From positions 1 through 64,000 of the forward strand of contig NZ_JAHRXF010000007.1 in assembly GCF_019104725.1 (NCBI RefSeq): 64,000 nt of DNA, read 5' to 3'. A program made the position numbers and the translations under genes. A model generated the notes under the pieces. That model worked only from the letters and a program-made list of their open reading frames with translations. It was not told the DNA's origin and did no database searches. Positions 1,318 through 48,043 of the stretch are shown here, piece by piece. The stretch's first letter is position 1; the number at the start of each line of letters is the position of its first letter. The DNA is from Streptomyces corallincola (lineage in GTDB: Bacteria > Actinomycetota > Actinomycetes > Streptomycetales > Streptomycetaceae).

Positions 1318-2487
1318 ATGACGGGGACGCCCGAGCGGATCGGCCGGTACACCGTGGCCAAGGAGCTGGGCTCGGGCGGCATGGGGGAGGTGTACCTCGC
1401 CTACACCCCGGGTGGTCAGCCGGTGGCGGTGAAGCTGATCCGGAGCGACAAGCTGGACCCCGTCACGCGGGCCCGCTTCGAAAAGGAAGCGCTGATAGCG
1501 CGCACCGTGATCGGTACCAACAGGGTGGCGCGGTTCCTGGAGGCCGACCCCTTCGCGGACCGCCCCTGGCTGGCGATGGAGTACGTGGCCGGACGCACCT
1601 TGCTGGCCTGCGTGGACCAGGACGGCGTTCTCCCCTTGCCGCTGGTCGCCAGTCTGGGCGCGTTGCTCGCCGAGGGGCTGAGCGCCGTGCACGCCGCGGA
1701 GCTGCTCCACCGGGATCTGAAGCCCCAGAACGTCATTATGGGCACAGAAGGTCCCATAATCATTGACTTCGGGCTCGGTGCGTTCATGGATGCCGCGAAG
1801 GAGTCCCTGTCCCACAGCGGGATGATCATTGGGACGGTGCGCTGCATGCCGCCGGAGCAGGCAAGCGGACATCCGAAGGTGACGCCAGCCGCGGACGTGT
1901 ACGCGCTGGGCACGGTTCTGCTGTATGCGGCGGCCCGCCACTACCCGTACGACGGTGCGGTGTGGGAAGCCGTCGCCATGCAGGTGGCGAATCCTGACAT
2001 CGGCCCGGATCTGAGCGGTGTGCCCGAGGGACTCAAGCAACTGATCGCCTGCATGCTCGCCCACGTTCCCGAGGACAGGCCGACGCTGGATGACGTTTCA
2101 AAGGCATGCTCGAAGCTTCTGAAGGCCGCTGGAAAGGCGCCGGCCGACGCACGACTTGCTCTGATCGCGCATACGGCCTCGGGCGGTACGCCGGATGCGG
2201 CCAAAGAGCCGTTGTCCCCATCGTTCGAGAAGCTGCTTGAGGACCAGGCCGAGATCACTGACGACGCGGGTCTCGACTCGCCGCTCGACAGTCCGCGAGG
2301 AGCTGCTGAGGCGGAAGAGCCGGAACCGGAGGAGGTGGCGCAGTACGAGCCGCACCCCGACGCCGCCGAGAAGGCCGTGAAGCCAAAGGCGGAGCCGAAG
2401 GCCAGGCCCAAGGCCGTAAGGCCGCCGGCATCGAAACGGGTCGCGGATGAGCTGAGGGCGGAGTACGCGGCGGATACCGCGCTTTGA
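1318..2487 (+). CDS. soluble Hanks-type serine/threonine protein kinase
   Basis: Predicted cytoplasmic Ser/Thr kinase of 389 aa. All core kinase motifs are present: glycine loop GSGGMGEVY (residues 18-26), ATP-anchoring Lys39 in VAVKLI, catalytic loop HRDLKPQN (131-138, Asp133), DFG at 150-152, and a PPEQ variant of the APE motif. The last 120 residues are acidic and rich in Ala, Pro, Lys and Glu, without recognisable domains. There is no transmembrane segment or PASTA repeat, unlike PknB. The ATG at 1318 is chosen because it follows AAGGAG (1299-1304) and gives the usual N-terminus; in-frame GTG 1291 and TTG 1252 are alternatives. It lies 128 bp upstream of the large helicase-methylase operon. 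Kinases are components of several phage-defence systems (for example PglW in Pgl/BREX), so a regulatory role there is possible but inferred. Confidence 0.9.
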   Translation: MTGTPERIGRYTVAKELGSGGMGEVYLAYTPGGQPVAVKLIRSDKLDPVTRARFEKEALIARTVIGTNRVARFLEADPFADRPWLAMEYVAGRTLLACVDQDGVLPLPLVASLGALLAEGLSAVHAAELLHRDLKPQNVIMGTEGPIIIDFGLGAFMDAAKESLSHSGMIIGTVRCMPPEQASGHPKVTPAADVYALGTVLLYAAARHYPYDGAVWEAVAMQVANPDIGPDLSGVPEGLKQLIACMLAHVPEDRPTLDDVSKACSKLLKAAGKAPADARLALIAHTASGGTPDAAKEPLSPSFEKLLEDQAEITDDAGLDSPLDSPRGAAEAEEPEPEEVAQYEPHPDAAEKAVKPKAEPKARPKAVRPPASKRVADELRAEYAADTAL

Positions 2488-2615
2488 TGGCCAAGCTGTC
2501 AGTGCCTGGTGGGAAGCTAGGCGGACGGGCGTATAGGTCGGCTTGGACGCTGTCCATACGATTCGTGAATGGTGAGCGGTGCGAAACGCGCCGTGGGTGA
2601 GGAATCGGAGCGGAC

Positions 2616-5600
2616 GTGAGCGTCGAGGCGGAAGCCGTGGGCGGGCAGAGCGATACGGCGAGGAACGCCCGGGAGCCGGACGAAGCCTCGTCGGCGAAGC
2701 GGCCGACTGACACTGGCGGATACGCGGCGGGCGCACAGGTCCTGATCCGAGACGAGCTGTGGCTGGTGCGCAACTGCAGGGACACCGACCGTGACGGATG
2801 GATGGTCGAGGTCACCGGCATCTCGTCGTTCGTCCGCGGGATCGACGCCACTTTCTACGACCGGCTGGATGTCGTCCAGGAGCTGGACCCGCGCGAGACC
2901 GAGCTGGTGGCAGACGACTCTCCGAACCACCGCAGGTCCCGTCTGTTCCTTGAGGCGATCATGCGGAAGACGTTCCTGCCGCAGACCGAGCACGGCCTGG
3001 CGCTGGCGGACAACTTCCTCATGGACCAGCAGGTCCACCAGCTGCGCCCGGCGGAGCTGGCGCTGTCGATGAAGAACCCGCAGCCGCGGATCCTGATCGC
3101 GGACGTCGTGGGTCTTGGTAAGACCCTGGAGATCGGGGTGCTGCTGGCGGAGCTGATCCGGCGGGGGCGCGGCGAGCGGATCCTGGTGGTGACGCCGCAG
3201 CACGTGCTGGAGCAGTTCCAGCGCGAGCTGTGGACCCGATTCGCGATCCCGCTGGTGCGGCTGGACTCGACCGGCATTCAGCGGGTGCAGCAGGACATCC
3301 CCGCGGGGCGGAACCCGTTCGCGTACTTCAAGCGCGCGATCATCTCCGTGGACACCCTGAAGAGCGACGTGTACGCCCACCACCTGGACAACACCGACTG
3401 GGACGCCGTCGTCATCGACGAGTCCCACAACCTCGTCAACCGCGGCACGAAGAACAACGCGCTCGCCCGTCTACTGGCACGCAAGACCGACGCGCTGGTG
3501 CTGGCCTCGGCCACCCCGCACAACGGCGACGCCACCTCCTTCGCCGAGCTTGTCAGGATGCTGGACGAGGCTGCGATCGCCAATCCGTCCCAGTACGAGG
3601 TGAAGGACCTCGCGCACCTCTACATCCGGCGCACCAAGACCGCGTCCGAAGTCCGCGAGTCCCTCAAGGGGACCTGGGCGGACCGCGGCCCGTCCCTGCC
3701 CCTCCACGCTCCGGCCACCGAGAAGGAACGCGCGGTCCTCCAGGAACTGGCCACACGCTGGATCCCGGCCGACCCGGCGACTCCGTCGGTGAGCCGGCAT
3801 CAGCTCGTCCCGTACCGGTTGCTGAAGTCGTTCCTCTCCTCGCACAAGGCGCTGTTGGCGACCATCAAGACCCGCATCGGAAACCTCGACAACCCGCCGC
3901 CCGACAAGCCCGACAACGGTTCGAAGACGCGGAAGCGGCCGGAGGACCCGGCGGTACGCGAAGCGGCACGGAAGGTCGAGCGGGCGGCCCTGACCGACCT
4001 GCAGCACCTCGCCGAGCAGATCGAGGACCAGGACTCGGCGAAGCGGGCAGCGCTGCTGGACGCGCTGCGGGAGCTGGGCGTCGGCCCAGGCTCGGACACC
4101 CGAGTGGTCGTGTTCTCCGAGAGCATCCCCACCCTGAAGTGGCTGGCGGAGACCGTCCCGGCCGCACTCGGCTTCCGGCACACCACCAGCCCGGACGAGA
4201 AGAAGCCCTGGCTGGGATACGGCGGAGCCGTACAGGTCATGCACGGCGAGGCCAGCACGGATCAGGAACAGCAGGACATCGTCGAGAAGTTCGGGCTGCG
4301 CGACGACCCGGTGCGCATCCTGTTCACCGGCGACGTCGCTTCCGAGGGCGTCAACCTGCATCAGCAGTGCCATCTGCTGATCCACTACGACCTGCCGTGG
4401 TCCCTGATCCGCATCGAGCAGCGCAACGGCCGTATCGACCGGTACGGGCAGGAACACCGGCCCGAGTTCCGCGCGCTGATCCTCACCAGTGACATCCCGT
4501 GGCGCACGGACGAGACGACCGGACAGCCGCGAACCCTGGACGACCGGCTGGTGGGCGAGAAGCTCCTCAGGCGTGAGGAGGAGGCTCACAAGATCGAAGG
4601 CTCGGCCGAGGCGGTCACCGGCCTGTACCGGGCCAAGGAAGAAGAGAACCGCCTCACCCAGGACCTGATCGCGGGCCGCACCGTCGAGGAGTCCATCAAG
4701 CAGTCCCAGCAGGGCGGCGCCGCCTTCCTCACCGGGCTTCTCGGCCAGGTGGGCGCAGTACACGAACACCCCGAAGTGGCCCGTGCCGTGGTACCGAAAC
4801 TCTTCCGGTCCACCGCCGACTACTTCGACGAGGCACTGCGGCAGATCTCCCGTCCCAACCCCGAGGACATGCTGTCGCTGCGGCGCGACGACGACGGCAC
4901 CATTGCCTTCGAGCCACCGCGGGACTTGCTGTACCGGCTCAAGGCACTGCCCAAGTCGTACCTGGACGAGCAGCAGATCCTGCCGCGCAAGACCGAGCCG
5001 GGACGCATGCGCATCACCTTTTCCAAGGACCTCGCCGCGGCGCGCCTGAAGGCGGCCCGGGAGACCACCGCGTCCCAATGGCCGAACGTCTCGTACGTCA
5101 CCGACGTCCACCCCGTCCTGGACTGGCTCACAGACAAGGTGCTCGTCGAGATCGGCCGCCACAAGGCCCCGGTGCTCGCCGCCACCGTGGACAGTCCGAC
5201 TTTCCTGGTCCAGGGCATCTACTCCAACGCGTTGGGCAAGCCCACCATCGTCGAGTGGATGGCCGTCTCCGGCCTTCCCGACAGCCCGCACGTCACAGCG
5301 CTGACCGCCGACGTACTGGAGAGCTACGGCGTAGGCCCGAACATGCCCGGCCGCGCCACACCGCGCGACCTGCCGGGCCTCAGCGCGCTTGTGCCCGACG
5401 CCATCGACGCCGCACAGCGACAACTCGCCCTCCTTGAAGGCGCGTACCGCGAGCAGATCGAAGAGACCCTTGCTCCCTATCGCAAGAAGGTCACCGACTG
5501 GCGGCAGGACGCCCTCTTCGCCAGTGCACGCCCGAAGGAAGCGGAGCTCGACCGCACGGCCAAGCGACAGCTGAAGCTGGTCAAGTCCCTGGAGACGGCG

Positions 5601-5672
5601 GGCGAACCGATGCTGCGCCTGCTGGCCGTCCTCGAACCGCACACCGCCACTGAAGGAGGCACCGAACGATGA
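2616..5672 (+). CDS. SNF2-type superfamily 2 helicase, DISARM DrmD-like
   Basis: Large helicase of 1018 aa, first gene of a four-gene coupled operon. Walker A appears as DVVGLGKTLEIG near residue 165, the DEAH-type box is VVIDESHN near 268, motif III is ASATPHNG, and motifs V-VI read GDVASEGVNL and RNGRIDRYGQ (around 603-612). This is the SNF2/RapA-like arrangement found in DrmD of class 1 DISARM, where such a helicase precedes an adenine methyltransferase, as here. The C-terminal 350 residues have no domain I can name. Start GTG follows GGAG with 5 nt spacing. Its stop overlaps the next start by 4 bp (ATGA, 5669-5672), indicating translational coupling. DNA translocation is well supported by the motifs; the defence role rests on the neighbours. 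Confidence 0.88.
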   Translation: MSVEAEAVGGQSDTARNAREPDEASSAKRPTDTGGYAAGAQVLIRDELWLVRNCRDTDRDGWMVEVTGISSFVRGIDATFYDRLDVVQELDPRETELVADDSPNHRRSRLFLEAIMRKTFLPQTEHGLALADNFLMDQQVHQLRPAELALSMKNPQPRILIADVVGLGKTLEIGVLLAELIRRGRGERILVVTPQHVLEQFQRELWTRFAIPLVRLDSTGIQRVQQDIPAGRNPFAYFKRAIISVDTLKSDVYAHHLDNTDWDAVVIDESHNLVNRGTKNNALARLLARKTDALVLASATPHNGDATSFAELVRMLDEAAIANPSQYEVKDLAHLYIRRTKTASEVRESLKGTWADRGPSLPLHAPATEKERAVLQELATRWIPADPATPSVSRHQLVPYRLLKSFLSSHKALLATIKTRIGNLDNPPPDKPDNGSKTRKRPEDPAVREAARKVERAALTDLQHLAEQIEDQDSAKRAALLDALRELGVGPGSDTRVVVFSESIPTLKWLAETVPAALGFRHTTSPDEKKPWLGYGGAVQVMHGEASTDQEQQDIVEKFGLRDDPVRILFTGDVASEGVNLHQQCHLLIHYDLPWSLIRIEQRNGRIDRYGQEHRPEFRALILTSDIPWRTDETTGQPRTLDDRLVGEKLLRREEEAHKIEGSAEAVTGLYRAKEEENRLTQDLIAGRTVEESIKQSQQGGAAFLTGLLGQVGAVHEHPEVARAVVPKLFRSTADYFDEALRQISRPNPEDMLSLRRDDDGTIAFEPPRDLLYRLKALPKSYLDEQQILPRKTEPGRMRITFSKDLAAARLKAARETTASQWPNVSYVTDVHPVLDWLTDKVLVEIGRHKAPVLAATVDSPTFLVQGIYSNALGKPTIVEWMAVSGLPDSPHVTALTADVLESYGVGPNMPGRATPRDLPGLSALVPDAIDAAQRQLALLEGAYREQIEETLAPYRKKVTDWRQDALFASARPKEAELDRTAKRQLKLVKSLETAGEPMLRLLAVLEPHTATEGGTER

Positions 5673-8600
5673 GCACCGACTTCGACTCCTTCGCCAACCG
5701 TGGCGAGTACCTGTCCGCGCACTACTTCGCCGACCAGCTCGGCACTGACCTCAAGAAGGGCCTGTTCGCCACCTGGGCGCAGCGCGAGGGTGACGAGAAC
5801 GACCCGCGCAAGACCCCGCGCGAGCTGCTGCGCACCCTGCGCACCCCCTACCTTGTCGAGGAACTGCGCGGCTACTTCGTCAAGACCACCCAGGCCGACG
5901 CCGAGGACGAAGCCCGCCTGAACACACACAACAACCCCGAGTGGACCAAGCGCCTCGCGGAGTGGCACCAGATGGTCCTGCGGGCCCTCGGCTACGACAC
6001 CTCCCCGGCCGAGCTCACTGTGCACCGCGCCGGCCGCGACCACACCCTGCCCGTCGCCTACCACGGCCATGGCATCGTCGCCCTGGACTGCGGCTGGACC
6101 GCGGCCAACGACGACGCCCTCGACCCCGACCGTGCCGGACGGCTCCTGTCGTCCGTGCGGGTCAGCGCGAGCGAGTCGTACGAGACGGGCGCGGCCCTGG
6201 CCTCTTGGCTCTTCCAGAGCGAACTCGGCGAAGTCGGTGGCCCGCACCCCCGCTTCGTCCTGCTGCTGTGCGGCGGCGTCATCCTGCTCGCCGATCGTCA
6301 GGCCTGGAACGAGGGCCGATACCTCGCGGTGAACCTCGACGCCGCCCTGGAACGCAATGACCGCGCCCAGCAGGGCGAACTCGCCACCATTGCCGCCCTG
6401 TTCAGCCTGGACATGCTCCGCCCCGGTGAGAATGACACCAGCCGCGGGATCGACGCTCTGCTCAAGTCCTCCGGTGACAATGCGGCCGGCGTCTCCGGCG
6501 AACTGCGCTACGGGTTGCAGCGCTCGGTCGAGATCATCGCCAACGAAGTGCTGCACCGGATGGCGGATCCGAAGAACAATGTCACCCCGGCCGACATCGA
6601 AAGCCCCAAGATCCCCTTCGCGCGCGAACTCACCCGCGAAGCGCTGCGCTACCTCTACCGCGTCCTGTTCCTGCTGTACGCGGAGGCCCGCCCCGAACTC
6701 GGCATCCTCCCTGCCGACGACGGGTCGTACGAGGCCGGCTACTCCATGGCCCGTCTGCGTGAACTCGTCGAGCGCGACGAGGAACTCGTCGAGGAGGAAG
6801 CCAAGAACGGCTTCCACCTCTTCCAGTCTCTCGACGTCCTGTTTAACAAGGTCAACTTCGGCCACCGTGCGTACGGCACCGAACCTGATGACGACCAGCC
6901 CGGCGACGATGAGGAGACCCGCAAGGCCAAGGAAGCCCGCCGCAGCGAGAACCGCGGCTTGCGCTTCGAGGCCCTGCGCAGCGAACTCTTCGAGCCGACC
7001 GCCATCCGCTTCATCGGCACAGGCGTCCTCGACCCGCGCAGCGACGAGGACAACGACCCCCGCTGGCTCGATCTGCGTCTGCGTAACGAAGCCCTCCACG
7101 AGGTGCTGCGGCTGCTGACGATGAAGAAGGGTAAGCGCGGCGAACGCGGTGGCTTCATCTCCTACCGCAACCTCGGCATCAACCAACTCGGCGCTGTCTA
7201 CGAGGGGTTGATGTCCTACACCGGCATCATCGCCAAGGAGGAACTGTGCGAGGTGGCCCGAGGCGGTGACCCGGAGCAGGGTTCCTGGCTCATCCCCTCA
7301 CACAAGCAGGACCAGTACCCCGACAAGACCCTCGTCCAGTACGGCGAGGACGACGCCCGTAAGGGCCTCCGCGGTCCGAAGAAGTACGAGAAGGGCTCGT
7401 TCGTCTACCGACTCGCTGGCCGTGACCGAGAGACTTCCGCCTCGTACTACACCCCTGAATCGCTGACCAAGGTCACCGTCGAGCTCACCCTCAAGAACCG
7501 CCTCGACCAGGAACGGGATGAGAATGGCGGCGTCATCAAGACGCGGGCGTCCGAGCTGCTGAAGTACAAGATCTGCGAGCCGGCGCTCGGCTCGGGCGCG
7601 TTCCTCAACGAGGCCATCAACCACGTCGCCGACGAATACCTGCGCCGCCGCCAGGACGAACTCGGCATCACCATCCCCGCGGCCGATGCGATCACCGAGA
7701 AGCAGAAGGTCAAGGCGTACATCGCCCTGCACAACGCCTACGGGGTCGACCTCAACGCCACCGGCGTCGAGCTGGCCGAGGTGTCGCTGTGGCTCAACAC
7801 GATGCACCCAGGCATGCGCGCGCCGTGGTTCGGGTTGCACCTGCGTCGGGGCAACTCGCTCATCGGCGGTCGCCGCGCGGTGTACGCAGGCGATGACGTG
7901 GCGGGCAAGGACAGGGCCTGGCTGAAGGCGAAGGGTGCCTTGGCACCAACACCGCTGCCTTTCATCAAGGACGGTGAGCTGCAGCCACTGCCCGACGACG
8001 CGGTGCACCAGTTCCTGCTGCCGAGCCCGGGCTGGGCCGCGGTTGCTGGCTCGAAAGAAGCCAAGGAACTCGCCAAGGAAGGCGTCGAGAAACTCGCTGC
8101 CTGGAAGAAGGGGATCCTTCAGCGCCCCAAGCGCAGCACCGCGCACCTCAATACGGACGGGAGCCCGAAGCTCAACCCCAAGAGCAAGGTACCGAAGCCG
8201 GAAACATCCTCCCAGTTCACGAAGCTGCGGGACGCTGCACGTCGGGTCGAGTTCCTGTGGGCGGCCGTCGTCAAGCGCATGGAACTCTCCGAGAAGGAGA
8301 TCGCGCGTCGGATCGACCTTTGGCAGGCCGATCCAACGGATCCCGAGTACGCCTTCCTCCAGCACCCCGATCAGGCGGTGCCGAAGGAGAAGGTCCTGGA
8401 GGACCTCTTCAATGCCGTCGACACTCCATACTGGCGGCTGAAGAAGGTCATGGACGCCTGGTGCGCCCTTTGGTTCTGGCCGGTTGACAAGGCTGGGCTG
8501 CTGGACGGCAGTGACGGTGAGTACGCGGCACGGACGGTCGTCAGTGACGCGGACGGCCTCAGTAAGGTGCTCGGAGGGGTGCCGCTGACCGGGGAGCGGC

Positions 8601-11164: not shown

Positions 11165-14100
11165 GGCCGACGCTGGAAGCGCGCGGGCTCAAGGAGAGCC
11201 TGCTGCAGTATCTGTCGACGACGTATGCGTTGACGGACGAGGGCGCGCGGGAGGCGCTGCATCGGTTCCTCGGGGATGAGACGACGGGGATGTTCCGCGG
11301 GCCGTACCTGCGGATCCGCACCCCGTTCACGGCGGCCAGCGAAGGGTGGCGTAAGCACCTGGAGTGGCAGCGTGAAGGATTCACCCCGTACGCGCATCAG
11401 GCGGTCGCGTTCGAGCGGCTGACGTCGGCGAACGGGCACACGCCGCAGCCGACCCTCGTGACCACGGGGACGGGTTCGGGCAAGACGGAATCGTTCCTCT
11501 ACCCGGTTCTCGATCACTGCCGCCGGGAGCGGGAGGCGGGGAAGACCGGCGTCAAAGCAGTGTTCCTGTACCCGATGAATGCGCTCGCGACCGACCAGGC
11601 GCAGCGCATCAACGACCTGCTCACGCAGAACGACGAGGCTCTCGGCAAGCTCTGGGCGGGGCTGTACATCGGGGACCGGGCGGCGACCCAGTACGAGAAG
11701 GTGCGTACGCGGCGTTCGGACATGCAGCTATCACCGCCGGACATCCTGATCACCAACTACAAGATGCTGGATCTGCTGCTGCAGCGTGAGGACGACGCCT
11801 CCCTGTGGCGGGACGCGGACATCCGGTACGTGGTGGTGGACGAGTTCCACACGTACGACGGCGCGCAGGGCACCGACGTGGCAATGCTGCTGCGACGGCT
11901 CGCGTCCGCGGTCGGCATGTCCGAGAAGGGACGCCCGCTGGGACGCATCTGTCCGGTTGCGACCTCCGCGACGCTCGCATCTGGAACAGACGAAGACGGG
12001 GTGACGCGCCTGCTGGAGGTGGCGAGCGACGTCTTCGGTACGGAGTTCACGGCGGAATCCATCGTCGGAGAGAACCGGCTGTCGGTCGAGGAGTTCATCC
12101 CGCTGACCGACGTGAAGATGCAGGGACTGCCGACGCCCGACGAGCTGCTGGCTCTGCCCGATCCCGCTTCCGGCGAGGAGGCGATGCTCGACCTCATCAA
12201 AGCGGTGACCACGGTCCGGGATCCGGACCCGTTCCTGCTGGGTGAGAACCTGAAACGGCATCTGTTCACCCGCGCGGTGATGCAGGCGCTGGACGGCGAA
12301 GTGAAGACCAGCTCGGAAGTGCTGGACGTTATGTGGCGGGCCGGCGCTGCTGGTTGGGCGGAGGCGGTGGCCCGTCAGCCGGAGAAGGCGGCCGAGGCGC
12401 TTGCCCGGTTCGTGGCGCTGATGTCGTACGCGCGTGACCCCAAGTCACCTCCGGGGGAGCCGCGTCCGTTCGTACACGTCGAGGTGCACCAGTGGGCCCG
12501 GTCCGTGTCCCGGCTGCTGCGTGGCGTACTGCCGTGGCCGAAGGCCGAGTTCCGCTGGGACGCGGCCGGCATGGCGGACGCCAGTGCGACCGACGGCGGC
12601 CGAACGGCGCCGGTGACGACCGCGACGTCGGGGCAGAGCGCCAACCTTTTCCTGCCGGCCATCTACTGCCGGGACTGCGGGCGGTCGGGCTGGGCGGTGT
12701 TCTCGCCGGAGAGCGATGACCACGACGTCCAGTTCGACACTTTCAAGATCCGTCGCGCCTCGCTCGGCCAGGACAAGGCCCGGGTACGGAACCTGATCGC
12801 AGCGACCGAGCGGGAGGCGCGAGAGGGCTCCGGAGCGGCGCCGATGGCGGCTGGCGGCAGGGGTACGAGCGCTGCATCGCAGGGCTCGGGCGGTTTGCTG
12901 ATGGTGCTGGACGGCGCGCGCAAGCGGCTGCGGTTGCCCGATCCGCTCAACGACTACGACAAGGACACCAAGGAGCCGCGGCTGACCGCCCGCGACTCGG
13001 CGTTCGTGCTGGTCAACTTCGGTGGCACGGTGGCGAACACCGCGGCCAGGGAAGACTGGTGTGCAGCGTGTGGCGAGCGCAACGCCATCCGCTACCTGGG
13101 CACCGGTTCGGCCGCGATGGCCGCGGCGTCGATCACGCAGCTGTTCACGGGTGGGGAGCTCGACAAGAAGCTGCACGAGGACAAGACGCTGATGTTCAAC
13201 GACTCGGTGCAGGATGCCGCGCACCGGGCCGGGTTCGTCTCGAACCGTTCGTACACTTTCTCGCTGCGCGCCCTGCTGGCCAAGCACCTAAGGCACGACC
13301 AGCCGACGCCGCTCAACGACCTGATCGCAGGCGTGGTCGAGGCCACTACGGACAAGGACACGCTGGCTGCGGTGGTGCCGCCGGATCTGCACGGCTACAA
13401 GGGAGTTGATCGGCTGCTGTCCGGTGAGGGGCGCGGCGGAAGTCTGCCGACGTGGCGTCTCATCGGGCAGCGTCTCGCGTTCGAGGCGTTGATGGAGTTC
13501 GGCTTCCGCTCGCGCAACGGCCGCACCCTGGAGCTGACCAGGACCGCTTCCGCGCAGGTTCGTATCGACGATGCGGTGGCCGTCGTAGCCCTCGTCAAAC
13601 GGATCCACGAGGAGTGTGTGCGCGACGGTGTCCCGCTGATCGCTCAGGACGACGCACGCTATCTGGCGTTCGTACGGATCTTCTTGGAACGGCTGCGCAC
13701 CCGGGGTGCGGTGGCGCACAAGTGGTTGAGCAAGTACGTGGACGAGGCGGGTACCAGCCGGTACTTCATCTGGGGCAAGCGGGCGCCTGGCATGCGGGCT
13801 TTCCCGAAACGCGTCGCGGCCCCGGTGTTCCTGCTCAGCCAGCCCAAGAACGGCAGCGAGTTCGACTTCGCGACCGGGCGGTTGTCCTGGTACGAGCGGT
13901 GGGCAGGGCGCTGCCTCGGTCTCCCGCGCGAGATGGCGCCGGAGTTCTGGAGTGGACTGCTACCAGAGCTGGCCTCGCTCGGCCTGCTGTCGGTCCGTAC
14001 CCCGGCTGACACCTCGGTGCGGGTGTACGGGCTGAAGCCGGGCAACATCGAGGCCCAGCTGCTGGACGACGAGCAGGTACGTCACGCCTACGTGCGCTGC

Positions 14101-17100
14101 CCGGTGTGTTTCTGGGAGCAGACGGTCCACCCGTCCCTGCTTGACCAGTGGCACGAGCAGCCGTGCCCCTCTTACCGCTGCCGCAACGGCCGCCTGGTGG
14201 CCGGCGACCGGCCCGAGGGCCTGGGCGCGCACCACCGCGACCGCGACTACACCGACGACTACTACCGTCGTCTGTACCGCAAGGCGGGCACCTATCAGGT
14301 GGTCACCGCTGAGCACACCGGGATGCTCTCCCGTCCGGAGCGGGAGAATGTGGAGAAGGCCTTCAAGCGCCGCGAGGGCTTCAAGGACCCCAACGTCCTG
14401 TCGTGCACCCCGACACTGGAGATGGGCATCGACATCGGTGACCTCTCGGCGGTCGTGCTTGCCGCTCTGCCGCGTCGCCCTGCCAGCTACGCCCAACAGG
14501 TTGGGCGAGCGGGACGCCGTACGGGCAATGCGTTCTTGCTGACCATCCCCGACCGACGGCGCCGCGACCTGTACTTCCTGGAGCGGCCAAAGGATCTGAT
14601 CGCGGGCACGATCGTGCCCCCGGGCTGCCATCTGTCAGCCATCGAGATCCTGCGCCGCCAATATCTGGCGCACTTGCTGGACCTCGCGGCCGCCGGACGG
14701 CTGGTGCGTGCGGACGGCATCGTGCTGCGTGCGCTGCCGCACAAGGCGCCTCGTCTGTTCGGGCCTTCGGGCTACCTGGTTGACCTGGTGGAGCTGGCCA
14801 TCGCCCAGGGCGAGGAACTGGCGAAGGGGTTCTTGGAGTTGTTCCCCTCCGGTGTCAACGACCAGGCCAAGGCCGACCTGCGTACTTACGCCACCCACGA
14901 CCTGCGCGCCAAGGTCGAGGAGGCCGAACGGGAGTGGTTCCGCGGCCAGCGAGCACTGCGGTCTCGGCTGCGTGAGATCGATGATGCCCACGAGGAACTG
15001 CACGACTCCGATCCGGACCAGGCGCGGCAGAAGGCCGAACTGGACGCCGAACGACGTGGAGTTGGCCGCCGCCTGATGAACCTGGGCGAGACGTCGGCCC
15101 AGAGCGCTCTGTGCGACCTGGGGCTGCTGCCCAACTACGCGCTGATCGATTCCACGACCGTTCTGTCGGCGACGCTGTACGGCGAGGACGGGGTGGACGC
15201 CAAGACGGGGCAGGTGAAGTACACCTCCACCACCGATTCCTACGAGAGGCCGCGGCGTATCGCGCTGGAAGAGATGGCCCCGGGCAACACCTTCTACGTC
15301 AACGGCCACAAGCATCAGATCACCGGTCTGGAGATTGCAACCGGCGGCCGGCAGGAGTGGCGCACTTGGCGCGTATGCCCGGGCTGCGGATACGTGCGTA
15401 CCGAGGACGCCGCCGAGGACCGGTCGCCATGCCCGCGCTGCAAGACCAGTCACATCGCAGACGACGGCTCCTGCCTGTTCCAGATCGTCGAACCGGCGAC
15501 CGTGACCTCGCGGGACAAACGGGAAGACGCCCAGATCCGCGATGACAAGGACGACCGGGACCGCCGTTTCTACACGGTCGTGGACGCGGTCGACATCCCG
15601 GTGGAGGCCATTGAGCCGGGCTCGTGGCGGCACGACAGCCAGACGTTCGGCGTCGACTACTGCCGTAAGGCGATGATTCGCCGGATCAACGTCGGACCGG
15701 TCCGTTACGACGCTCCGAACCGCGACGACTTCGCCGGCCACCGGGTGCGCCTGAACCCGTTCCACGTGTGCACGGCCTGCGGCGCGGCCACCGCGGACGG
15801 CCAGCCGGTCTTCGACCACGACACTGACGCGCTCGACTCCCTCGCCGCTCGCAGCGGAGCACTCAAGCACCACCGTCCATGGTGCCCGTTGCGGCGCGGA
15901 AAGAAGGACGGCGTACGTCAAGAACCCGTCTTGCTCGCCCACAAGTTGGAGACCGAAGCCCTGCGGGTCCTCATCCCCGCCGCCACCGCAGACGTCGATT
16001 CCAAGGTGCACTCGTTCAGGGCCGCACTTCGCCTCGGCGTGGACCTTCACTTCGGCGGCGACCCTCAGCACCTGGCCACCACCGTCGCCTCCATGCCGGA
16101 CAACGAGAGCGGCGAGCGCCGCTGGTTCCTCGTGCTCTTCGACTCGCTGCCCGGTGGCACCGGCTACCTGGACCGGCTCACCGATCCGATCGCGTTCCGC
16201 GACACCCTGGCCAAGGCGTACGAGATGCTCAAGGAGTGCCCGTGCGCCGAGGAGCAGCGCCGGGCCTGCCACCGCTGCCTGCATCGCTACACCCCTGAGC
16301 CGTTCCAGGACATCGTCTCGCGCCAAGCCGCGCTGACGATGCTGGAATCCCTGCTGTTCAAGCAGGACGGCTCGGACGGCTGGGAGTGGAGCGAGGTCGA
16401 CCACACCGGACTGGTCGGCTTGGACGCCCAGGTCGAATCCGACCTTGAGGCGCGCTTCCTGGCGGCCCTGCGCGACTGGGTGAAGGTCACCGACGACGCC
16501 TCCCTCGACGAAGACGGCCATGCGAGCGGGCATCTGCGCTTCACCGACGGTCCCGGCGTCATGCACTGGCGCCTGACCGCGCAGCAGCAACTCCGGGGCA
16601 CCGTCACCGACTTCACCTTCACGCGCATCGACGGGCCGACCCAGAGCGTCAAGGTCTACCTCGAAGGCTTTCGCTTCCACGCCAGCCGCGAGCACAACCA
16701 GATCGCCACCGACGCGGCGAAGCGCACCCTCCTGCGCGCCGAAGGAGAGACCGTCTTCCAGATCACCTGGGCGGACATCGATCTCTTCGAGAAGCGGCCC
16801 ACCCGTACGCAGCCCGTATGGCCGCCGTACCGGGGCACGGCTCAGGAACAGGCCAAGACCGCGTACGAGCAGTACGGCGGCCAGCGCGCCCACTTCGCCG
16901 ATGCTGTCTTCGCCAACCCCATCGACACCTTGATCGCCTACCTGCGTGATCCGGATGCCGACCGCTGGGCCCGCCGGGCCCGCGCTCTGGTCACCGGGCT
17001 GACGGCCCAGCCAGGCACGGCCCCGGTTGCCGCGGCCGGACGCCGCAGCGAACTGGTGGCAGCCCTGCGCGGCCAACTGGCCACCTTCTCCGCCACCGAG

Positions 17101-17901
17101 CGCCACGACAAGCCGGTCGTAGCGGATGCCGCCGGCATCGGACCCGTCCATGTCTTCCGCACGCAGGACGAGACCGGGCTGCCGATCGTGTTCGCCCTGG
17201 ACGCCGCCGACCCCGAGGCCCTGAAATGGACCGCCCTCGCCGTGCTCGACGACTCCGAAGCCGTGCTGGACACGGACGAGCACAAGGAACGCTGGCGGTC
17301 CTGGCTGTACTGGACCAACCTCACCCAGTTCCTGTCTCTGGCCGGCGGTGACGGCGTCCAGCTCGCCACCAGCAAGGCCGCGGACTTCGAGGTCGAGGTT
17401 CTCGCGGTCTGCGGCGGGCTCGGCGAACTCGACTCGCTGATCGGCGCCCTCGCACCCGTCGTGCCCGAGGCGCCTGTGACCGTGGTCAAGCCCGTCGACC
17501 CAGACCCCGGGCACGACTCGGCCGCCGAGGCCGCCGTTGTCCAGGCGCTTCGCGACGCCGTCTGGGACGAGGACATCCTGGAGATCCTGCGCGAAGACGT
17601 GGATGAGGCACCGGACTTGCTCCGTCTCGCCGAGACACTTGCCGACCGCGGCAAGCAGGCACCCGTCTTTGGCTACGAATTGGGCACCAGCCGCTGGCAG
17701 GCCGACTTCGCCTGGCACACCTCCGCTCTCAAGATCGCCGTTGTCTCCGCCCACCAGGGCGACGACGACCCCGAGGCCCAGCGACGCGACGCCGCGTACG
17801 CCGAGGACGGCTGGACTGTGCGTACTGCCGCCGAATGGCTCGACCATCTCGACGAACTGCTCGACCAGCTCCCCGACACGGAAGAAGGCACGCTCCGATG
17901 A
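11161..17901 (+). CDS. giant DEAD/DEAH helicase with DUF1998 and nuclease-like C-terminus (DruE- or DrmA/DrmB-like)
   Basis: Superfamily 2 helicase of 2246 aa. Walker A TTGTGSGKTESF lies near residue 102, a DEFH box near 227, motif III as ATSATLA, and motifs V-VI as EMGIDIGDLS and QQVGRAGRR near 1113. Long insertions separate the RecA lobes and include Cys pairs (YCRDCG, WCAACG). A DUF1998 region with FDSLPGGTGY and zinc-type CPC...CHRC cysteines spans roughly 1590-1726. This architecture is that of Druantia DruE, or of DISARM DrmA and DrmB joined in one chain. Beyond it, residues about 1758-1876 (VTDFTF, VYLEGFRFH, ITWADI) resemble a Vsr-like PD-(D/E)XK fold, and the last 100 residues look like a second degenerate one. 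The GTG start follows AGGAGG (11145-11150) and overlaps the methylase stop. Helicase assignment is sure; the nuclease domains are inferred. Confidence 0.88.
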   Translation: MRPTLEARGLKESLLQYLSTTYALTDEGAREALHRFLGDETTGMFRGPYLRIRTPFTAASEGWRKHLEWQREGFTPYAHQAVAFERLTSANGHTPQPTLVTTGTGSGKTESFLYPVLDHCRREREAGKTGVKAVFLYPMNALATDQAQRINDLLTQNDEALGKLWAGLYIGDRAATQYEKVRTRRSDMQLSPPDILITNYKMLDLLLQREDDASLWRDADIRYVVVDEFHTYDGAQGTDVAMLLRRLASAVGMSEKGRPLGRICPVATSATLASGTDEDGVTRLLEVASDVFGTEFTAESIVGENRLSVEEFIPLTDVKMQGLPTPDELLALPDPASGEEAMLDLIKAVTTVRDPDPFLLGENLKRHLFTRAVMQALDGEVKTSSEVLDVMWRAGAAGWAEAVARQPEKAAEALARFVALMSYARDPKSPPGEPRPFVHVEVHQWARSVSRLLRGVLPWPKAEFRWDAAGMADASATDGGRTAPVTTATSGQSANLFLPAIYCRDCGRSGWAVFSPESDDHDVQFDTFKIRRASLGQDKARVRNLIAATEREAREGSGAAPMAAGGRGTSAASQGSGGLLMVLDGARKRLRLPDPLNDYDKDTKEPRLTARDSAFVLVNFGGTVANTAAREDWCAACGERNAIRYLGTGSAAMAAASITQLFTGGELDKKLHEDKTLMFNDSVQDAAHRAGFVSNRSYTFSLRALLAKHLRHDQPTPLNDLIAGVVEATTDKDTLAAVVPPDLHGYKGVDRLLSGEGRGGSLPTWRLIGQRLAFEALMEFGFRSRNGRTLELTRTASAQVRIDDAVAVVALVKRIHEECVRDGVPLIAQDDARYLAFVRIFLERLRTRGAVAHKWLSKYVDEAGTSRYFIWGKRAPGMRAFPKRVAAPVFLLSQPKNGSEFDFATGRLSWYERWAGRCLGLPREMAPEFWSGLLPELASLGLLSVRTPADTSVRVYGLKPGNIEAQLLDDEQVRHAYVRCPVCFWEQTVHPSLLDQWHEQPCPSYRCRNGRLVAGDRPEGLGAHHRDRDYTDDYYRRLYRKAGTYQVVTAEHTGMLSRPERENVEKAFKRREGFKDPNVLSCTPTLEMGIDIGDLSAVVLAALPRRPASYAQQVGRAGRRTGNAFLLTIPDRRRRDLYFLERPKDLIAGTIVPPGCHLSAIEILRRQYLAHLLDLAAAGRLVRADGIVLRALPHKAPRLFGPSGYLVDLVELAIAQGEELAKGFLELFPSGVNDQAKADLRTYATHDLRAKVEEAEREWFRGQRALRSRLREIDDAHEELHDSDPDQARQKAELDAERRGVGRRLMNLGETSAQSALCDLGLLPNYALIDSTTVLSATLYGEDGVDAKTGQVKYTSTTDSYERPRRIALEEMAPGNTFYVNGHKHQITGLEIATGGRQEWRTWRVCPGCGYVRTEDAAEDRSPCPRCKTSHIADDGSCLFQIVEPATVTSRDKREDAQIRDDKDDRDRRFYTVVDAVDIPVEAIEPGSWRHDSQTFGVDYCRKAMIRRINVGPVRYDAPNRDDFAGHRVRLNPFHVCTACGAATADGQPVFDHDTDALDSLAARSGALKHHRPWCPLRRGKKDGVRQEPVLLAHKLETEALRVLIPAATADVDSKVHSFRAALRLGVDLHFGGDPQHLATTVASMPDNESGERRWFLVLFDSLPGGTGYLDRLTDPIAFRDTLAKAYEMLKECPCAEEQRRACHRCLHRYTPEPFQDIVSRQAALTMLESLLFKQDGSDGWEWSEVDHTGLVGLDAQVESDLEARFLAALRDWVKVTDDASLDEDGHASGHLRFTDGPGVMHWRLTAQQQLRGTVTDFTFTRIDGPTQSVKVYLEGFRFHASREHNQIATDAAKRTLLRAEGETVFQITWADIDLFEKRPTRTQPVWPPYRGTAQEQAKTAYEQYGGQRAHFADAVFANPIDTLIAYLRDPDADRWARRARALVTGLTAQPGTAPVAAAGRRSELVAALRGQLATFSATERHDKPVVADAAGIGPVHVFRTQDETGLPIVFALDAADPEALKWTALAVLDDSEAVLDTDEHKERWRSWLYWTNLTQFLSLAGGDGVQLATSKAADFEVEVLAVCGGLGELDSLIGALAPVVPEAPVTVVKPVDPDPGHDSAAEAAVVQALRDAVWDEDILEILREDVDEAPDLLRLAETLADRGKQAPVFGYELGTSRWQADFAWHTSALKIAVVSAHQGDDDPEAQRRDAAYAEDGWTVRTAAEWLDHLDELLDQLPDTEEGTLR

Positions 17902-20204
17902 CCGCCCGGCTCAGCCTGTACCGCAAAGCCGAACAGGAGCTGTACAAGCTCGACCGCTCGGTCAAGGCCCAGTTCTACGACTTCTGCCACAACTTCCGGA
18001 ACAACCCTGATCTCCCGGGTCTCAGGAAGAAGAAGCTCAAGGGCGATTCCCGCATCTGGTCGGCTCGAGTCAACCAGGACTATCGGGCCCTGCTCACCCC
18101 CACCGGTGTCAACGCGGACGGTGCCGAGAGCTGGCTGGTCATCGCCGTCCGGCACCGCAAGGACGTCTACGAAGAGCTTCAGGTCGCCGTCAACCGCGTC
18201 ACCGGCGAGATCGAGTTCGTCGACCTCGCCGTCGTCGGCGACAGCGCTCTGCGCAGGGTCGGCATCACGCTCACTCCGGCCGAGCCGGAGGAGCAGGCGC
18301 CCAAGCCCGAGGCTGTCCCTGAACCCGAGCCTGCGGCGCCGGCGCTGCTCTCCGCGTACGACGCAGGACAACTGCGGTGGCTCGGCGTCGCCGAGCAGCT
18401 GATCGACCTGGCGCTTACGGTGACCACCAGCGCCGAACTCGACCAACTTGTCGAGAGCGCCCCGCTGCTGTCGAAGGACATCCTGTACGGTCTCGCCGCC
18501 GGGATGGACATCGACGATGTCCGTAATGAGATCACCGCACCGGTCAAACTCGACCAGCAGCCCGACCCCGACGACTTCGCTACAGCGTTCTCCCGCACCA
18601 AGGTCACCACAGTTGACGACGCAGTACGCGCAGTCATCGAGGAAGGCGACTTCCGTGCCTGGAAGGTCTTCCTGCACCCCACGCAAGAGCGCATCGTCCA
18701 CCGCCACTACAAGGGCCCCGCCCGCGTCTCCGGCGGCCCCGGCACCGGCAAGACGATCGTCGCCCTACACCGGGTCAAGCAGCTCGCTGAACAGCTGCCC
18801 CCTGGGCACAACAAGCCGATCCTGCTGACCACCTTCACCAAGAACCTCACCACTGACCTGCGCCTGCGGCTCGCCTCCCTCGTCGAACCGGAGTTGCTGG
18901 CCCGCGTCGACATCGCCCACATCGACCAGCTCGCCGCTCGCGTCCTAGGCGAAAACACTGCCCCCGGACGTGGCAAGCAGCGCGTCTACGACCACGTGGC
19001 CCTGAACGAGATGCGCCAACTGCTGGCCGAACTCGACGACCGACGCTGGGAGCCGGAGTTCCTCCTTGAGGAGTGGGAGCAGGTCATCCTCGGCCAGTCG
19101 GTCCCCACCCGCTCCGACTACTTCAAGGCCCGCCGCGCTGGCCGGGGGCGCGCGCTCACTCGCCCCGAGCGCAACCACATCTGGAAACTCATCGAGCAGT
19201 TCACCGCCCGCCTCGACAAGCTCGGCGTCGAAACCTGGGGCCAGGCCGCCGAACGCGCCGCCCGCTTCGAGATCGAGCGCGCCGCGAAGATCAGGGCCCG
19301 CCGCGAGTACAAGGAAAAGATCGGTGGCAAGGACCTCATCCACCGCGATGACAGCTCCGGCATGCGCTACATCGGATACCGCTACCGGCACATTGTCGTC
19401 GACGAGGCCCAGGACCTGCGCCCCGCGCATTGGAAGATGCTGCGGGCCATGGCCGACCCCGACCAGCCCAACGACATGTTCGTCGCGGGCGACACCCACC
19501 AGCGCATCTACGACCACCAGGTCGCTCTCGGCGCCCTCGGCGTCAACATCCGAGGCCGTGCCTCACGGCTGACCCTGAGCTACCGCACGACGAAGGAGAT
19601 CCTCGCCGAGGCCCTCCGCGTCGTTGACCCCAAGAGCAAGAACGAGAAGGTCACGTACGACGACCTCGACGACGGCACCGACACGCTCGCCGGATACCGT
19701 TCCGTCCTCCACGGTCCCAAGCCCGACTTCAACCGGTACGACACCTGGGACGACGAACTCGCAGGACTCGCCACGACGTTGAGCACGTGGCGCGAGGAAC
19801 TCTCCACCGACGAAAAGGGCGCCTCCCTCGACCCCAGCGGCCGCATCGCCGTGTGCGTGGCCGACCGCGACATGGTCAGCCAGACCATGTATTACCTGGC
19901 TACCAAGGCGGGCATCACCTGCGCCGAACTAACGAAGGACGGCCCCAAGGGCGACGGCGAAGTCCACGTCGGCACGATGCACCGCTTCAAGGGACTCGAA
20001 TATCAACGGCTTGCCATCGTCGGCGCCAGCGATGGCATCATCCCGCGCACCAGCGTCATCGAGCGCTACCGCACCGAAGACCCGCCCCGCTACGAACGCG
20101 AGCAGCGTAAGGCTCGCTCCTTGCTTTTCGTCGCCACGACCCGGGCCCGCGATGCCCTGAACATCAGCTGGCACGGCAAGCCCAGTCCCTACCTGCCGAT
20201 CTGA
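17898..20204 (+). CDS. UvrD/Rep-type superfamily 1 helicase with N-terminal RelE-like domain
   Basis: Predicted 768-aa protein. The first 100 residues follow the RelE/ParE toxin pattern (LYRKAEQELYKLDRSVKAQF, then SARVNQDYRALL and a VIAVRHRKDVYE strand). The rest is a UvrD-type helicase: Walker A SGGPGTGKTIVALH near residue 279, Walker B VVDEAQD near 500, QRIYDHQ, SYRTTKEI, the HRFKGLEY segment and a final VATTRARD motif. The start ATG overlaps the stop of the DUF1998 helicase (ATGA, 17898-17901), so it is the fourth gene of the coupled operon. A RelE-like fold fused to UvrD may bind or cleave RNA, or may only serve as a docking domain; the sequence does not decide. The helicase call is firm. 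Confidence 0.9.
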   Translation: MTARLSLYRKAEQELYKLDRSVKAQFYDFCHNFRNNPDLPGLRKKKLKGDSRIWSARVNQDYRALLTPTGVNADGAESWLVIAVRHRKDVYEELQVAVNRVTGEIEFVDLAVVGDSALRRVGITLTPAEPEEQAPKPEAVPEPEPAAPALLSAYDAGQLRWLGVAEQLIDLALTVTTSAELDQLVESAPLLSKDILYGLAAGMDIDDVRNEITAPVKLDQQPDPDDFATAFSRTKVTTVDDAVRAVIEEGDFRAWKVFLHPTQERIVHRHYKGPARVSGGPGTGKTIVALHRVKQLAEQLPPGHNKPILLTTFTKNLTTDLRLRLASLVEPELLARVDIAHIDQLAARVLGENTAPGRGKQRVYDHVALNEMRQLLAELDDRRWEPEFLLEEWEQVILGQSVPTRSDYFKARRAGRGRALTRPERNHIWKLIEQFTARLDKLGVETWGQAAERAARFEIERAAKIRARREYKEKIGGKDLIHRDDSSGMRYIGYRYRHIVVDEAQDLRPAHWKMLRAMADPDQPNDMFVAGDTHQRIYDHQVALGALGVNIRGRASRLTLSYRTTKEILAEALRVVDPKSKNEKVTYDDLDDGTDTLAGYRSVLHGPKPDFNRYDTWDDELAGLATTLSTWREELSTDEKGASLDPSGRIAVCVADRDMVSQTMYYLATKAGITCAELTKDGPKGDGEVHVGTMHRFKGLEYQRLAIVGASDGIIPRTSVIERYRTEDPPRYEREQRKARSLLFVATTRARDALNISWHGKPSPYLPI

Positions 20205-20205
20205 T

Positions 20206-20219
20206 GTGCCGTACGGCAC
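20206..20219. repeat. 14-bp perfect palindrome between convergent genes
   Basis: GTGCCGTACGGCAC is self-complementary and sits in the 32-bp gap between the convergent UvrD-like and Mrr-like genes, a few bases after the UvrD stop. It lacks a loop, so a classical terminator is unlikely; it might act as a protein site or be chance. Confidence 0.35.
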
Positions 20220-20236
20220 TCCCGGGCCGGAATTGC

Positions 20237-21295
20237 CTACGGGGCCCCAGCCCGGGACAGGGAACTCGCCTCATAGCGCAGCTGGTAGGCGCGTACGCCG
20301 GTGCCGTTCATGCGGTAGAGCGTGATCGCTGACAGGAACTGCTCTTTGACCTCTGCGGTGCGGTAGCGCTCCTTCTCTCCGATGCCGCTGATCCACTCCT
20401 CGATGTGCTCTGGGAGCTTGAAGGTGAGTTCGTAGGCGCCGACCGCGTCTGCCGGTGAGAGCGTCCATTCCGCCGCGGCTCCTACGCCCCGTCGTTTGAT
20501 CCGCACTGCATGGTCGGGCTTCGCCTCGGCGTACTCCAGGAACCCTCGGTGGTCATCGGCGGCGAGCGGCAGGATGAATGGCGCGGCAGGGAAACCGAGG
20601 AGCAGCTCTGCGTCGCTGTGCTGCCGGAGCACCGTGGCGAAGTCCTCAATCACGGTGCCGCCGGCCTGTTTGAACTTTCCCTCGGGGATGGAAACGGGTG
20701 GCAGCTCCAGCGGGGATGTCCCCAGCGCCTTCCGCAGCTCGGAGCGCATCCAATTCAGCGGAAACGGGGCCGACTTCGGCAGATGCTGCTGCGCCGTGCA
20801 CAGACTCGTCGCCGTAGCTCCGATGTGGCCAAGCAGCCAGGCGAAGGAGGCACCCGACAGATCCACGAGAGAGATCTGGTGGGCAAGCGCGTACTTCTGG
20901 GCGTCGGCGGTGAACCCACTCGCGGAGAACAACGCGTACGAGTATTTGTACCGCTGCCGGGGCCGCGTCCCGGTGCCCGTCATGAAGTTCTGGTTCACGT
21001 CGTGCACAACACCGTGGGCGTTCCGGACGACCTCCAACTCGCAGCGTGTCTGGTAGTACTTGGCTTCCAGAAACAGCCGCACCGGCATGGAGAACGCCGG
21101 GGTGAAGGCGAACTCTCCGAGAACGTCCACCTGGTGGAGCGCGCCCCGCCCTCGGACCCGTAGAGTCTGGCCCTCCGTCACCAATTCGACCGGATCTTGA
21201 TTTTCGTGGACGAGAAGCCGGTAGCCGCTGAAGCGCAGCAGCCAGGCCAGCGACTCTTCCAGTAAGTACCCCCGCAACGATGAGTCCTTGAGCAC
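20237..21295 (-). CDS. Mrr-type PD-(D/E)XK restriction endonuclease-like protein
   Basis: Predicted 352-aa nuclease. The N-terminal half has the Mrr-like PD-(D/E)XK pattern: GRGALHQVDVLGEF with Asp57, then RLFLEAKYY with Glu77 and Lys79, followed by VVRNAHGVVHDVNQ. These are the expected catalytic residues of a DNA-cleaving core. The C-terminal half (from about residue 190) has no recognised domain and may hold the target-sensing part. The GTG start has a strong purine-rich ribosome site (GGGAGGGAG). It converges on the helicase-methylase operon with only 32 bp between stops, so it may supply that system's nuclease or be an independent type IV-like enzyme. The nuclease call is good; the partnership is inferred. 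Confidence 0.82.
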   Translation of the reverse strand: MLKDSSLRGYLLEESLAWLLRFSGYRLLVHENQDPVELVTEGQTLRVRGRGALHQVDVLGEFAFTPAFSMPVRLFLEAKYYQTRCELEVVRNAHGVVHDVNQNFMTGTGTRPRQRYKYSYALFSASGFTADAQKYALAHQISLVDLSGASFAWLLGHIGATATSLCTAQQHLPKSAPFPLNWMRSELRKALGTSPLELPPVSIPEGKFKQAGGTVIEDFATVLRQHSDAELLLGFPAAPFILPLAADDHRGFLEYAEAKPDHAVRIKRRGVGAAAEWTLSPADAVGAYELTFKLPEHIEEWISGIGEKERYRTAEVKEQFLSAITLYRMNGTGVRAYQLRYEASSLSRAGAP

Positions 21296-26262: not shown

Positions 26263-26497
26263 ACGTGCTCCTGTTCTCACCAGTCGGGACTGGCAGCACA
26301 GTCGCCCCAGGCCCCCACCCAACCACCGCGCCCCTCACAACACGCCAGTAGGGATTCAACCGATATACCCCAAGAGTCGGCCACTGCACCCCAATATGGC
26401 GAGTGACCTGCTCCGGCCCATGCGCGGCTCGGCCCTCGCCGGGGGGTGTCGCGGACACCGCCGAGTCCGCGCAGACGATAGAAGGCGCCCTTGCTGG

Positions 26498-48003: not shown

Positions 48004-48031
48004 CTGGGGAATCCCCTCCTGCGCCCTGTGA

Positions 48032-48043
48032 GACAACGTTGTC
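48032..48043. promoter_or_regulatory. LacI-type operator candidate before the second GH92 gene
   Basis: The perfect palindrome GACAACGTTGTC repeats the site at 40625-40636. It lies 29 bp upstream of the ATG, in the divergent space shared with ngcE, so it could also affect that operon. Confidence 0.75.

Follow-up and report, generated by a model that had tools for sequence, protein, structure and literature searches.

As reported in a bioRxiv preprint (Bell et al. 2025, PMC12458937), ARMADA type II consists of the BrxHII-like helicase ArmA, the PglX-like methyltransferase ArmB, the YprA-like helicase ArmC, which ends in a Vsr-type nuclease, and ArmD, a RelE-like domain joined to a GajB-like helicase, all encoded in a strict gene order. 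A BrxA-like insert, a MarR-like domain and zinc modules are further traits of ArmC in this system. According to the same text, ARMADA II of Escherichia coli NCTC 12900 restricted 13 of 80 phages in a non-abortive manner that required all four genes, the system of E. coli ATCC 8739 works in the strain that naturally carries it, and ARMADA and class I DISARM have two proteins in common, DrmD and DrmMI. The mechanism of restriction was called unknown in a 2026 review (PMC12904381). In this study, we analyzed positions 1 to 64,000 of contig NZ_JAHRXF010000007.1 of Streptomyces corallincola (assembly GCF_019104725.1), a stretch hereafter called the window, which is the start of a 186 kb contig in a genome of 6.39 Mb and 111 contigs. 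Judged by sequence, the genes at 2616-20204 are ARMADA type II, a named system tested against phages, and a kinase gene that precedes them appears to be a fixed fifth gene of this system in one actinobacterial lineage. The features concerned are as follows (aa, amino acids).

1318..2487, plus strand: Hanks-type Ser/Thr protein kinase, 389 aa, provisionally named ArmK and proposed as the fifth component (Pkinase, 1.2e-33)
2443..2484, plus strand: C-terminal peptide of the kinase, residues 376-389, A-x-x-L-R-x-x-Y-A-x(4)-[LF], a candidate docking motif
2616..5672, plus strand: ArmA, BrxHII/RapA-like SNF2-family helicase, 1018 aa (SNF2/Helicase_C domains; match to ArmA of E. coli ATCC 8739)
5669..11164, plus strand: ArmB, PglX-like or type IIG-like N6-adenine methyltransferase, 1831 aa (CEPALGSG and NPPW motifs; match to E. 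coli ArmB)
11161..17901, plus strand: ArmC, YprA-family DEAD helicase with MZB/DUF1998, 2246 aa (DEAD, Helicase_C and MZB; match to E. coli ArmC)
16378..17898, plus strand: C-terminal region of ArmC, residues 1740-2246, a putative Vsr-like PD-(D/E)xK nuclease domain followed by a second, apparently degenerate domain
17898..20204, plus strand: ArmD, GajB-like UvrD helicase with a RelE/ParE-like domain fused to its N-terminus, 768 aa (UvrD, 1.7e-23)

Based on pairwise comparisons with the ARMADA locus of E. coli ATCC 8739, which served as the reference, all four core proteins have counterparts in the published system. ArmA matches with 34% identity over 881 aligned positions (E 1e-143), ArmB in two pieces (33% over 869 and 31% over 658), ArmC with 29% over 1976 aligned positions (645 bits), and ArmD with 31% over 774 aligned positions (E 1e-96), and the gene order and domain make-up are identical in the two loci. 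Moreover, the eight residues that Bell et al. mutated, all of them found in the ATCC 8739 proteins under their published numbering, are unchanged in the window: Lys169 and Asp268 of ArmA, Gly641 and Asn1149 of ArmB, Lys108 and Asp227 of ArmC, and Lys285 and Asp502 of ArmD. The open reading frames (ORFs), strands and gene overlaps described in an initial annotation were also recovered, the stop/start overlaps between the core genes being exactly 4 bp at 5669 (ATGA), 11161 (GTGA) and 17898 (ATGA). The order A-B-C-D recurs in relatives across several genera and families and is thus no chance arrangement; the closest ArmA relatives are found in Streptomyces and neighbouring genera, with a top identity of 96% (L078, S. 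ureilyticus).

The initial annotation rightly saw a defence operon of several genes that is related to DISARM and includes a DruE-like helicase, but it had proposed an undescribed six-gene system with a convergent Mrr nuclease. The profiles of PADLOC-DB 2.0.0 that these genes match singly do bear the names of several different systems; this library dates from 2023 and is older than the ARMADA preprint. Since the four chained genes match the published, phage-tested ARMADA II, "undescribed" is refuted for the core, which a known system covers completely. The Mrr-like gene is likewise ruled out as a core part, being present in only 15 of 42 loci with enough downstream sequence, and we assign the six-gene reading an almost negligible probability.

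Profile scans with Pfam and PADLOC covered the seven proteins of 34-21295, the PADLOC profiles being scanned one by one, and the domain names of the initial annotation agree with their matches. ArmA contains SNF2/Helicase_C domains in Pfam, and its top PADLOC profile is DrmD (4.5e-75). ArmB is best matched by type IIG (8.9e-266) and also by DrmMI (1e-53), while ArmC carries DEAD, Helicase_C and MZB (DUF1998) in one ORF, with DruE (8.1e-89) as its top profile. For ArmD, the UvrD match is GajB-like, whereas the ParE_toxin match (8.6e-4) lies below the Pfam cutoff; Arg63 is kept in 60 of 60 aligned ArmD proteins.

These profiles bear on the reading of the locus as a variant of class 1 DISARM, with which it shares a DrmD-like helicase and a DrmMI-like methylase, ArmA and ArmB being matched by the profiles of just those two proteins that ARMADA and class I DISARM have in common (PMC12458937). 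In contrast to class 1 DISARM, which has DrmA and DrmB, the window lacks separate genes for these and contains a single 2246-aa fused YprA helicase of the DruE/ArmC kind, as the initial annotation had recognized, together with the kinase and ArmD, which is not a DISARM gene. The DrmA profile matches ArmC far more weakly (7.6e-15) than DruE does, and the pairwise scores point ArmC outside DISARM and to ARMADA, the best piece against the Druantia III DruE of the same ATCC 8739 island reaching only 115 bits; the ArmC assignment rests on these pairwise scores with ArmC and DruE and on the DrmA profile scores. DrmC, a PLD nuclease, is missing, as had been noted: Pfam finds no PLD domain in these genes, and no DrmC profile is among the PADLOC matches listed (best 25 per protein), where the sole PLD-named profile, PLD_Helicase, matches the helicase part of ArmA. 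The RelE-UvrD gene had been taken as a replacement for DrmC, but it is ArmD. A separate DISARM system is ruled out by the missing DrmC and the ArmC scores, and a class 1 DISARM variant appears very improbable. As for Druantia, the likeness lies in ArmC as a DruE-like YprA helicase; no Druantia profile (including DruH) is among the PADLOC matches listed (best 25 per protein) for the other operon genes.

The ARMADA II loci of the window and E. coli ATCC 8739 differ upstream of ArmA, where the former and its clade have the kinase and the latter has Druantia III and Zorya II. The kinase consists of a kinase domain (residues ~1-262), a low-complexity linker and a conserved C-terminal peptide, and its gene ends 128 bp before ArmA. 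Its catalytic residues Lys39, His131, Arg132, Asp133, Asn138, Asp150 and Gly152 are invariant in 23 of 23 aligned kinases. For a census, ArmB relatives were collected among 84,980 species genomes, giving at least 590 stretches, of which 562 were confirmed and the best 80 kept. In agreement with the initial annotation, which had counted the kinase as an operon member, a kinase ORF immediately precedes ArmA in 73 of 73 assessable loci among these best 80 of 562 ArmB relatives, loci chosen for similarity to the window. From the kinase end to the estimated start of ArmA, the spacing ranges from an overlap of 76 bp to a gap of 230 bp; 71, 70 and 70 of the 73 kinases show VAIK-, HRD- and DFG-type motifs, respectively, and only five other ORFs in these loci match the kinase at E ≤ 1e-5. 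Seven of the 80 loci could not be assessed: ArmA lies at or across a contig edge in L033, L090, L095 and L102, the stretches of L060 and L106 start inside ArmB, and L054 is taken up below. Among them, L095 retains a kinase end cut off at the contig edge, and L033, from a metagenome assembly, looks rearranged.

In a second draw, the window ArmB was compared with 394 genomes of the class, of which 86 gave a match, many of them weak and PglX-like. From the stronger matches, 40 stretches were picked by hand, to the exclusion of weak PglX-like matches and of short fragments from G340, G152, G260 and G182. The kinase is present in 23 of 24 loci of the same clade (the exception being L159) and in none of 16 more distant actinobacterial loci, counts that are not fully independent of the census because the two draws may overlap in genomes. 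Local ArmB identity to the window is at least 44% in loci with the kinase and at most 42% in loci without it. Furthermore, among ARMADA loci on plasmids, the kinase is present in Streptomyces and absent in Tsukamurella, Martelella, Nostoc, Aulosira, E. coli and Klebsiella, the Microvirga plasmid locus being not assessable, and the three Streptomyces plasmids that carry ARMADA also have the closest kinases among the plasmids. In the Nostoc stretch (L116), an annotated kinase cut by the edge lies more than 7 kb upstream of ArmA, with other genes between. None of the 24 no-kinase loci gave a match to a generic kinase pattern, which recovers 91 of 97 positives and misses the cut Nostoc gene. A kinase-like match in L150 (30% over 216 residues, minus strand) was scored as no kinase, and L115 was set aside because its record begins 431 bp before ArmA. 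Collectively, these comparisons place the kinase in the ARMADA unit of this lineage.

We mapped the kinase on a FastTree phylogeny of ArmA with 125 rows, which has local support only, long branches that meet and an unsure deep order. Kinase presence (98 rows) and absence (23 rows) are explained on this tree by one change, on a branch with a local support of 100, compared with a mean of 21.3 changes for shuffled labels. The tree may plausibly be rooted on the side without the kinase, since this side comprises Pseudomonadota, Cyanobacteriota and other Actinomycetota. Under the most parsimonious history, the kinase would have been gained once and never lost among the 98 rows with ArmA. In the 23 no-kinase loci, no substitute gene is common before ArmA, the most frequent family occurring in 5 of them.

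The ARMADA kinases also form one clade when compared with 26 other kinases, of which 20 are encoded in the same genome as the window; in this genome, the next best kinase has 43% identity. Across 296 genomes of the class, with six candidates scored in each, the 13 best kinase matches (at least 208 bits, window included) all adjoin ArmB matches, while below 208 bits ordinary kinases are mixed with more distant ARMADA kinases. Among 396 genomes of the phylum, four kinase matches reach E ≤ 1e-55, and all are among those 13. These data bear on the possibility that the kinase is an independent single-gene defence, a toxic kinase like PD-T4-6 that hitch-hikes before ARMADA II. PD-T4-6 is a single-gene system, and MADS, whose mad6 also has a Hanks kinase domain in a defence setting, is a different operon. 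The top PADLOC profile of the window kinase is indeed PD-T4-6 (1.7e-54), but these profiles are broad, and the name stands on 22 of the 25 profiles listed for this protein. Since the ArmA tree needs one gain and no loss, the best kinase matches are all at ARMADA loci, and a strict C-terminal motif (below) is nearly confined to ARMADA kinases, we regard hitch-hiking as improbable. Unlike PD-T4-6 and mad6, the window kinase is tied to ARMADA II; it appears to have entered one actinobacterial lineage once and to have been kept there beside intact ArmA.

The C-terminal peptide of the kinase lies at, or a few residues from, the C-terminus, after the variable low-complexity linker. The Tyr is conserved in 98 of 98 kinase rows (97 ARMADA kinases and the flank match of L150), the Arg in 96, the first Ala in 93 and the Leu in 90 of 98, and the final Leu or Phe in 95 of 97. 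The strict pattern is found in 84 of the 98 rows and in one other ORF among 24,810, which is the kinase end cut at the contig edge of L095; a looser pattern finds 95 of the 98 rows and 12 other ORFs. No such motif is present in the C-terminal ends of 20 other kinases from the same genome. A short peptide conserved beyond a variable linker looks like a docking motif.

Another explanation accepts the core as ARMADA II and has the kinase control only expression or the general immune response, for example by phosphorylating a repressor. In this respect, CapK, which is encoded upstream of other immune operons, is described as phosphorylating the repressor CapS (PMC13373217), and the 128-bp gap between the kinase and ArmA could hold a promoter. 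However, the same source likens CapK to anti-sigma-factor kinases and not to Hanks kinases, and the tail of the window kinase is conserved in the manner of a contact surface. Nor is a cognate regulator gene conserved upstream: among ORFs within 4.5 kb before the kinase in 66 loci, identified by simple ORF calls and grouped into blastp families, the commonest family occurs in only 6 of the 66, and gene conservation thus begins at the kinase. Control limited to expression or to the general immune response seems unlikely to us. JetD of Wadjet, at the start of the contig, was also rejected as an operon part, as only 5 of 72 loci have it at most 1.5 kb from the kinase.

The C-terminal 507 residues of ArmC (1740-2246) were modeled separately and gave a confident fold, with a predicted local distance difference test score (pLDDT) of 88. 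The candidate active site, formed by Glu1763, Asp1817, His1840 and Asp1851, is invariant in 41 of 41 aligned ArmC proteins from kinase-bearing and kinase-less loci. Such an E-D-H-D pattern is that of Vsr/EDxHD nucleases. In the pairwise alignment with E. coli ArmC, the Glu, His and last Asp align (Glu1689, His1773 and Asp1780), whereas Asp1817 is not exactly aligned. A Foldseek search against the PDB gave no match at E ≤ 0.001 (best E 0.029), the weak top matches including the nucleases TnsA, BsmI and Bax1, and Pfam has no match for this region. The best VIA matches, both with a modest Z of 6.7, are a putative endonuclease (3hrl, model residues 19-194) and the homing endonuclease I-Bth0305I (3r3p, aligned to model residues 407-500), with E2-like folds scoring close behind. 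The end of ArmC thus fits a putative Vsr-type nuclease: the residue pattern agrees with the description by Bell et al., while the fold match alone is indecisive.

Functionally, the kinase has its nearest parallel in Pgl of S. coelicolor. Pgl (BREX type 2) resembles the window in that a streptomycete Hanks kinase is encoded with a PglX-like methyltransferase; the kinase activity of PglW is required for the Pgl resistance of S. coelicolor and has been proposed to activate PglX by phosphorylation (PMC4365076). PglW, however, is described as a protein of 1400-1600 residues that combines a nuclease domain, kinase domains in tandem and sensor domains (PMC12839542), whereas the window kinase has 389 aa, a single domain and a short tail. 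PglZ and PglY/BrxC were not seen for the seven proteins of 34-21295 (for PADLOC, among the matches listed, best 25 per protein). In a preprint on Druantia III, a conserved helicase-nuclease core is proposed, with partners that differ by subtype determining its activation (PMC13192584). Based on the PglW model and on such partner-set activation, we propose the kinase as the activation or licensing layer of ARMADA in this lineage. Since the E. coli systems that were tested need no kinase, it would modulate, and not perform, the core reaction.

The proposal builds on what the sequence comparisons support, namely membership of the core, a single origin of the kinase and its retention beside intact ArmA, a distinctive tail and intact catalytic motifs; we infer the order of DNA recognition and cutting, the docking, the substrate and the direction of control. 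By homology to the E. coli systems, recognition and processing of the incoming phage DNA would fall to the motors ArmA and ArmC and the methyltransferase ArmB, and its cutting to the putative Vsr-like nuclease that terminates ArmC; ArmD (RelE-UvrD) would also be needed, and protection would be direct and non-abortive. The kinase would dock on an Arm protein through the conserved C-terminal peptide, with the variable linker between, and would phosphorylate at least one Arm protein, turning the complex on or off upon infection in a manner comparable to PglW and PglX. We consider it likely that this is an ARMADA II operon of an actinobacterial lineage whose first gene encodes a Hanks-type kinase that docks via its tail, phosphorylates Arm proteins and switches the complex. 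The stricter form, toward which we lean only slightly, is a subtype of ARMADA II gated by the kinase, with the latter as an obligatory fifth subunit held by the docking peptide and with Arm phosphorylation licensing or activating the machine.

Several observations weigh against this proposal. The 73 of 73 count comes from loci selected for their similarity to the window. L054, with ~10 kb of upstream sequence present, is a truncated operon of the clade without ArmA, the start of ArmB and the kinase, and L159, a truncated operon placed in the same clade by ArmB, is likewise without ArmA, the front of ArmB and the kinase. The 128-bp gap before ArmA leaves room for separate transcription. Tree correlations between the kinase and the Arm proteins are high (Mantel, 48 loci, r 0.83-0.95; 0.92 with ArmA and 0.95 with ArmC), but such values are expected from joint descent alone and are no evidence of contact; a common operon and common inheritance are no proof of physical interaction. 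Moreover, ArmA-D contain no large domain specific to the kinase clade that could be a docking site, only segments of 11-28 columns. The kinase-less E. coli systems are active, so that the kinase is dispensable for the core reaction.

If the kinase does switch ARMADA, phospho-control, known from Pgl, would be a recurrent add-on to PglX-type methylase defences. The single entry of the kinase into the operon and its retention next to all intact ArmA genes examined in this clade suggest a control step in ARMADA, the 14-residue tail offers a concrete handle for finding the partner and testing the switch, and the sister systems with and without the kinase provide a natural comparison. While ARMADA II is already known, the fixed fifth-gene kinase appears to be new: the main text of PMC12458937 contains no instance of the word "kinase" (supplements lay outside this check), and among the titles and abstract openings of the papers listed for ARMADA or DISARM together with kinase, PglW, YprA, DUF1998 or Streptomyces, none describes such a kinase, supplements and subscription papers being outside the scope.

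The core operon is flanked by the following genes.

34-1134, plus strand: JetD of Wadjet, at the contig start (PADLOC JetD, 5.4e-109)
20237..21295, minus strand: probable Mrr-type PD-(D/E)xK nuclease, convergent, a neighbour and not core (invariant LEAK motif, residues 76-79)

Any JetA-C genes would be located past the end of the contig. The convergent Mrr-type ORF of the initial annotation exists, but its Mrr_cat match is weak (E 0.0025; 18.4 bits, with the cutoff at 21), its model is too poor to use (pLDDT 54), and it does not belong to the conserved unit. Further downstream, 23089-26322 (minus strand) encodes a 1077-aa ResIII/DEAD helicase (1.2e-23), possibly another defence gene, and, with a GH92 glycosidase encoded at 44203-48588, the defence stretch probably does not extend that far.

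Related loci vary in composition. The Tsukamurella plasmid NZ_LR134452.1 (L114) carries DrmA (5e-244) and DrmB (4.5e-66) at 6237-11146, directly before ArmA (at 11182), ArmB, ArmC and ArmD, with no kinase, and may be a composite DISARM-ARMADA locus, as if the DrmD/ArmA and DrmMI/ArmB subunits were common to both systems. Probable relatives of the DrmA gene were also found by blastp families in L147, L148, L151 and L154, the profiles having been run on L114 only. ArmB relatives occur on plasmids of E. coli and Klebsiella (15 and 2 of 34 matching records, respectively); the plasmid stretches L117 and L120 contain the four Arm genes in order, and the Klebsiella plasmid stretch also has, before ArmA, genes annotated like the Druantia III pair of ATCC 8739. 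In part of the kinase clade, the ArmB-ArmC junction appears to be an insertion hot spot, with gaps of ~1.3-9.7 kb in 19 of the 66 loci that have both ArmB and ArmC in view (ArmC lies outside the stretch in 14 more). Examples include L082:15400-21300, L091:15000-24700, L059:15300-17500, L098:15000-16400 and L112:15050-24900, and the inserts inspected carry GmrSD with AAA/DUF3696, a caspase-helicase fusion with a Beta protein, AbiEii-like AAA genes, or an NYN protein.

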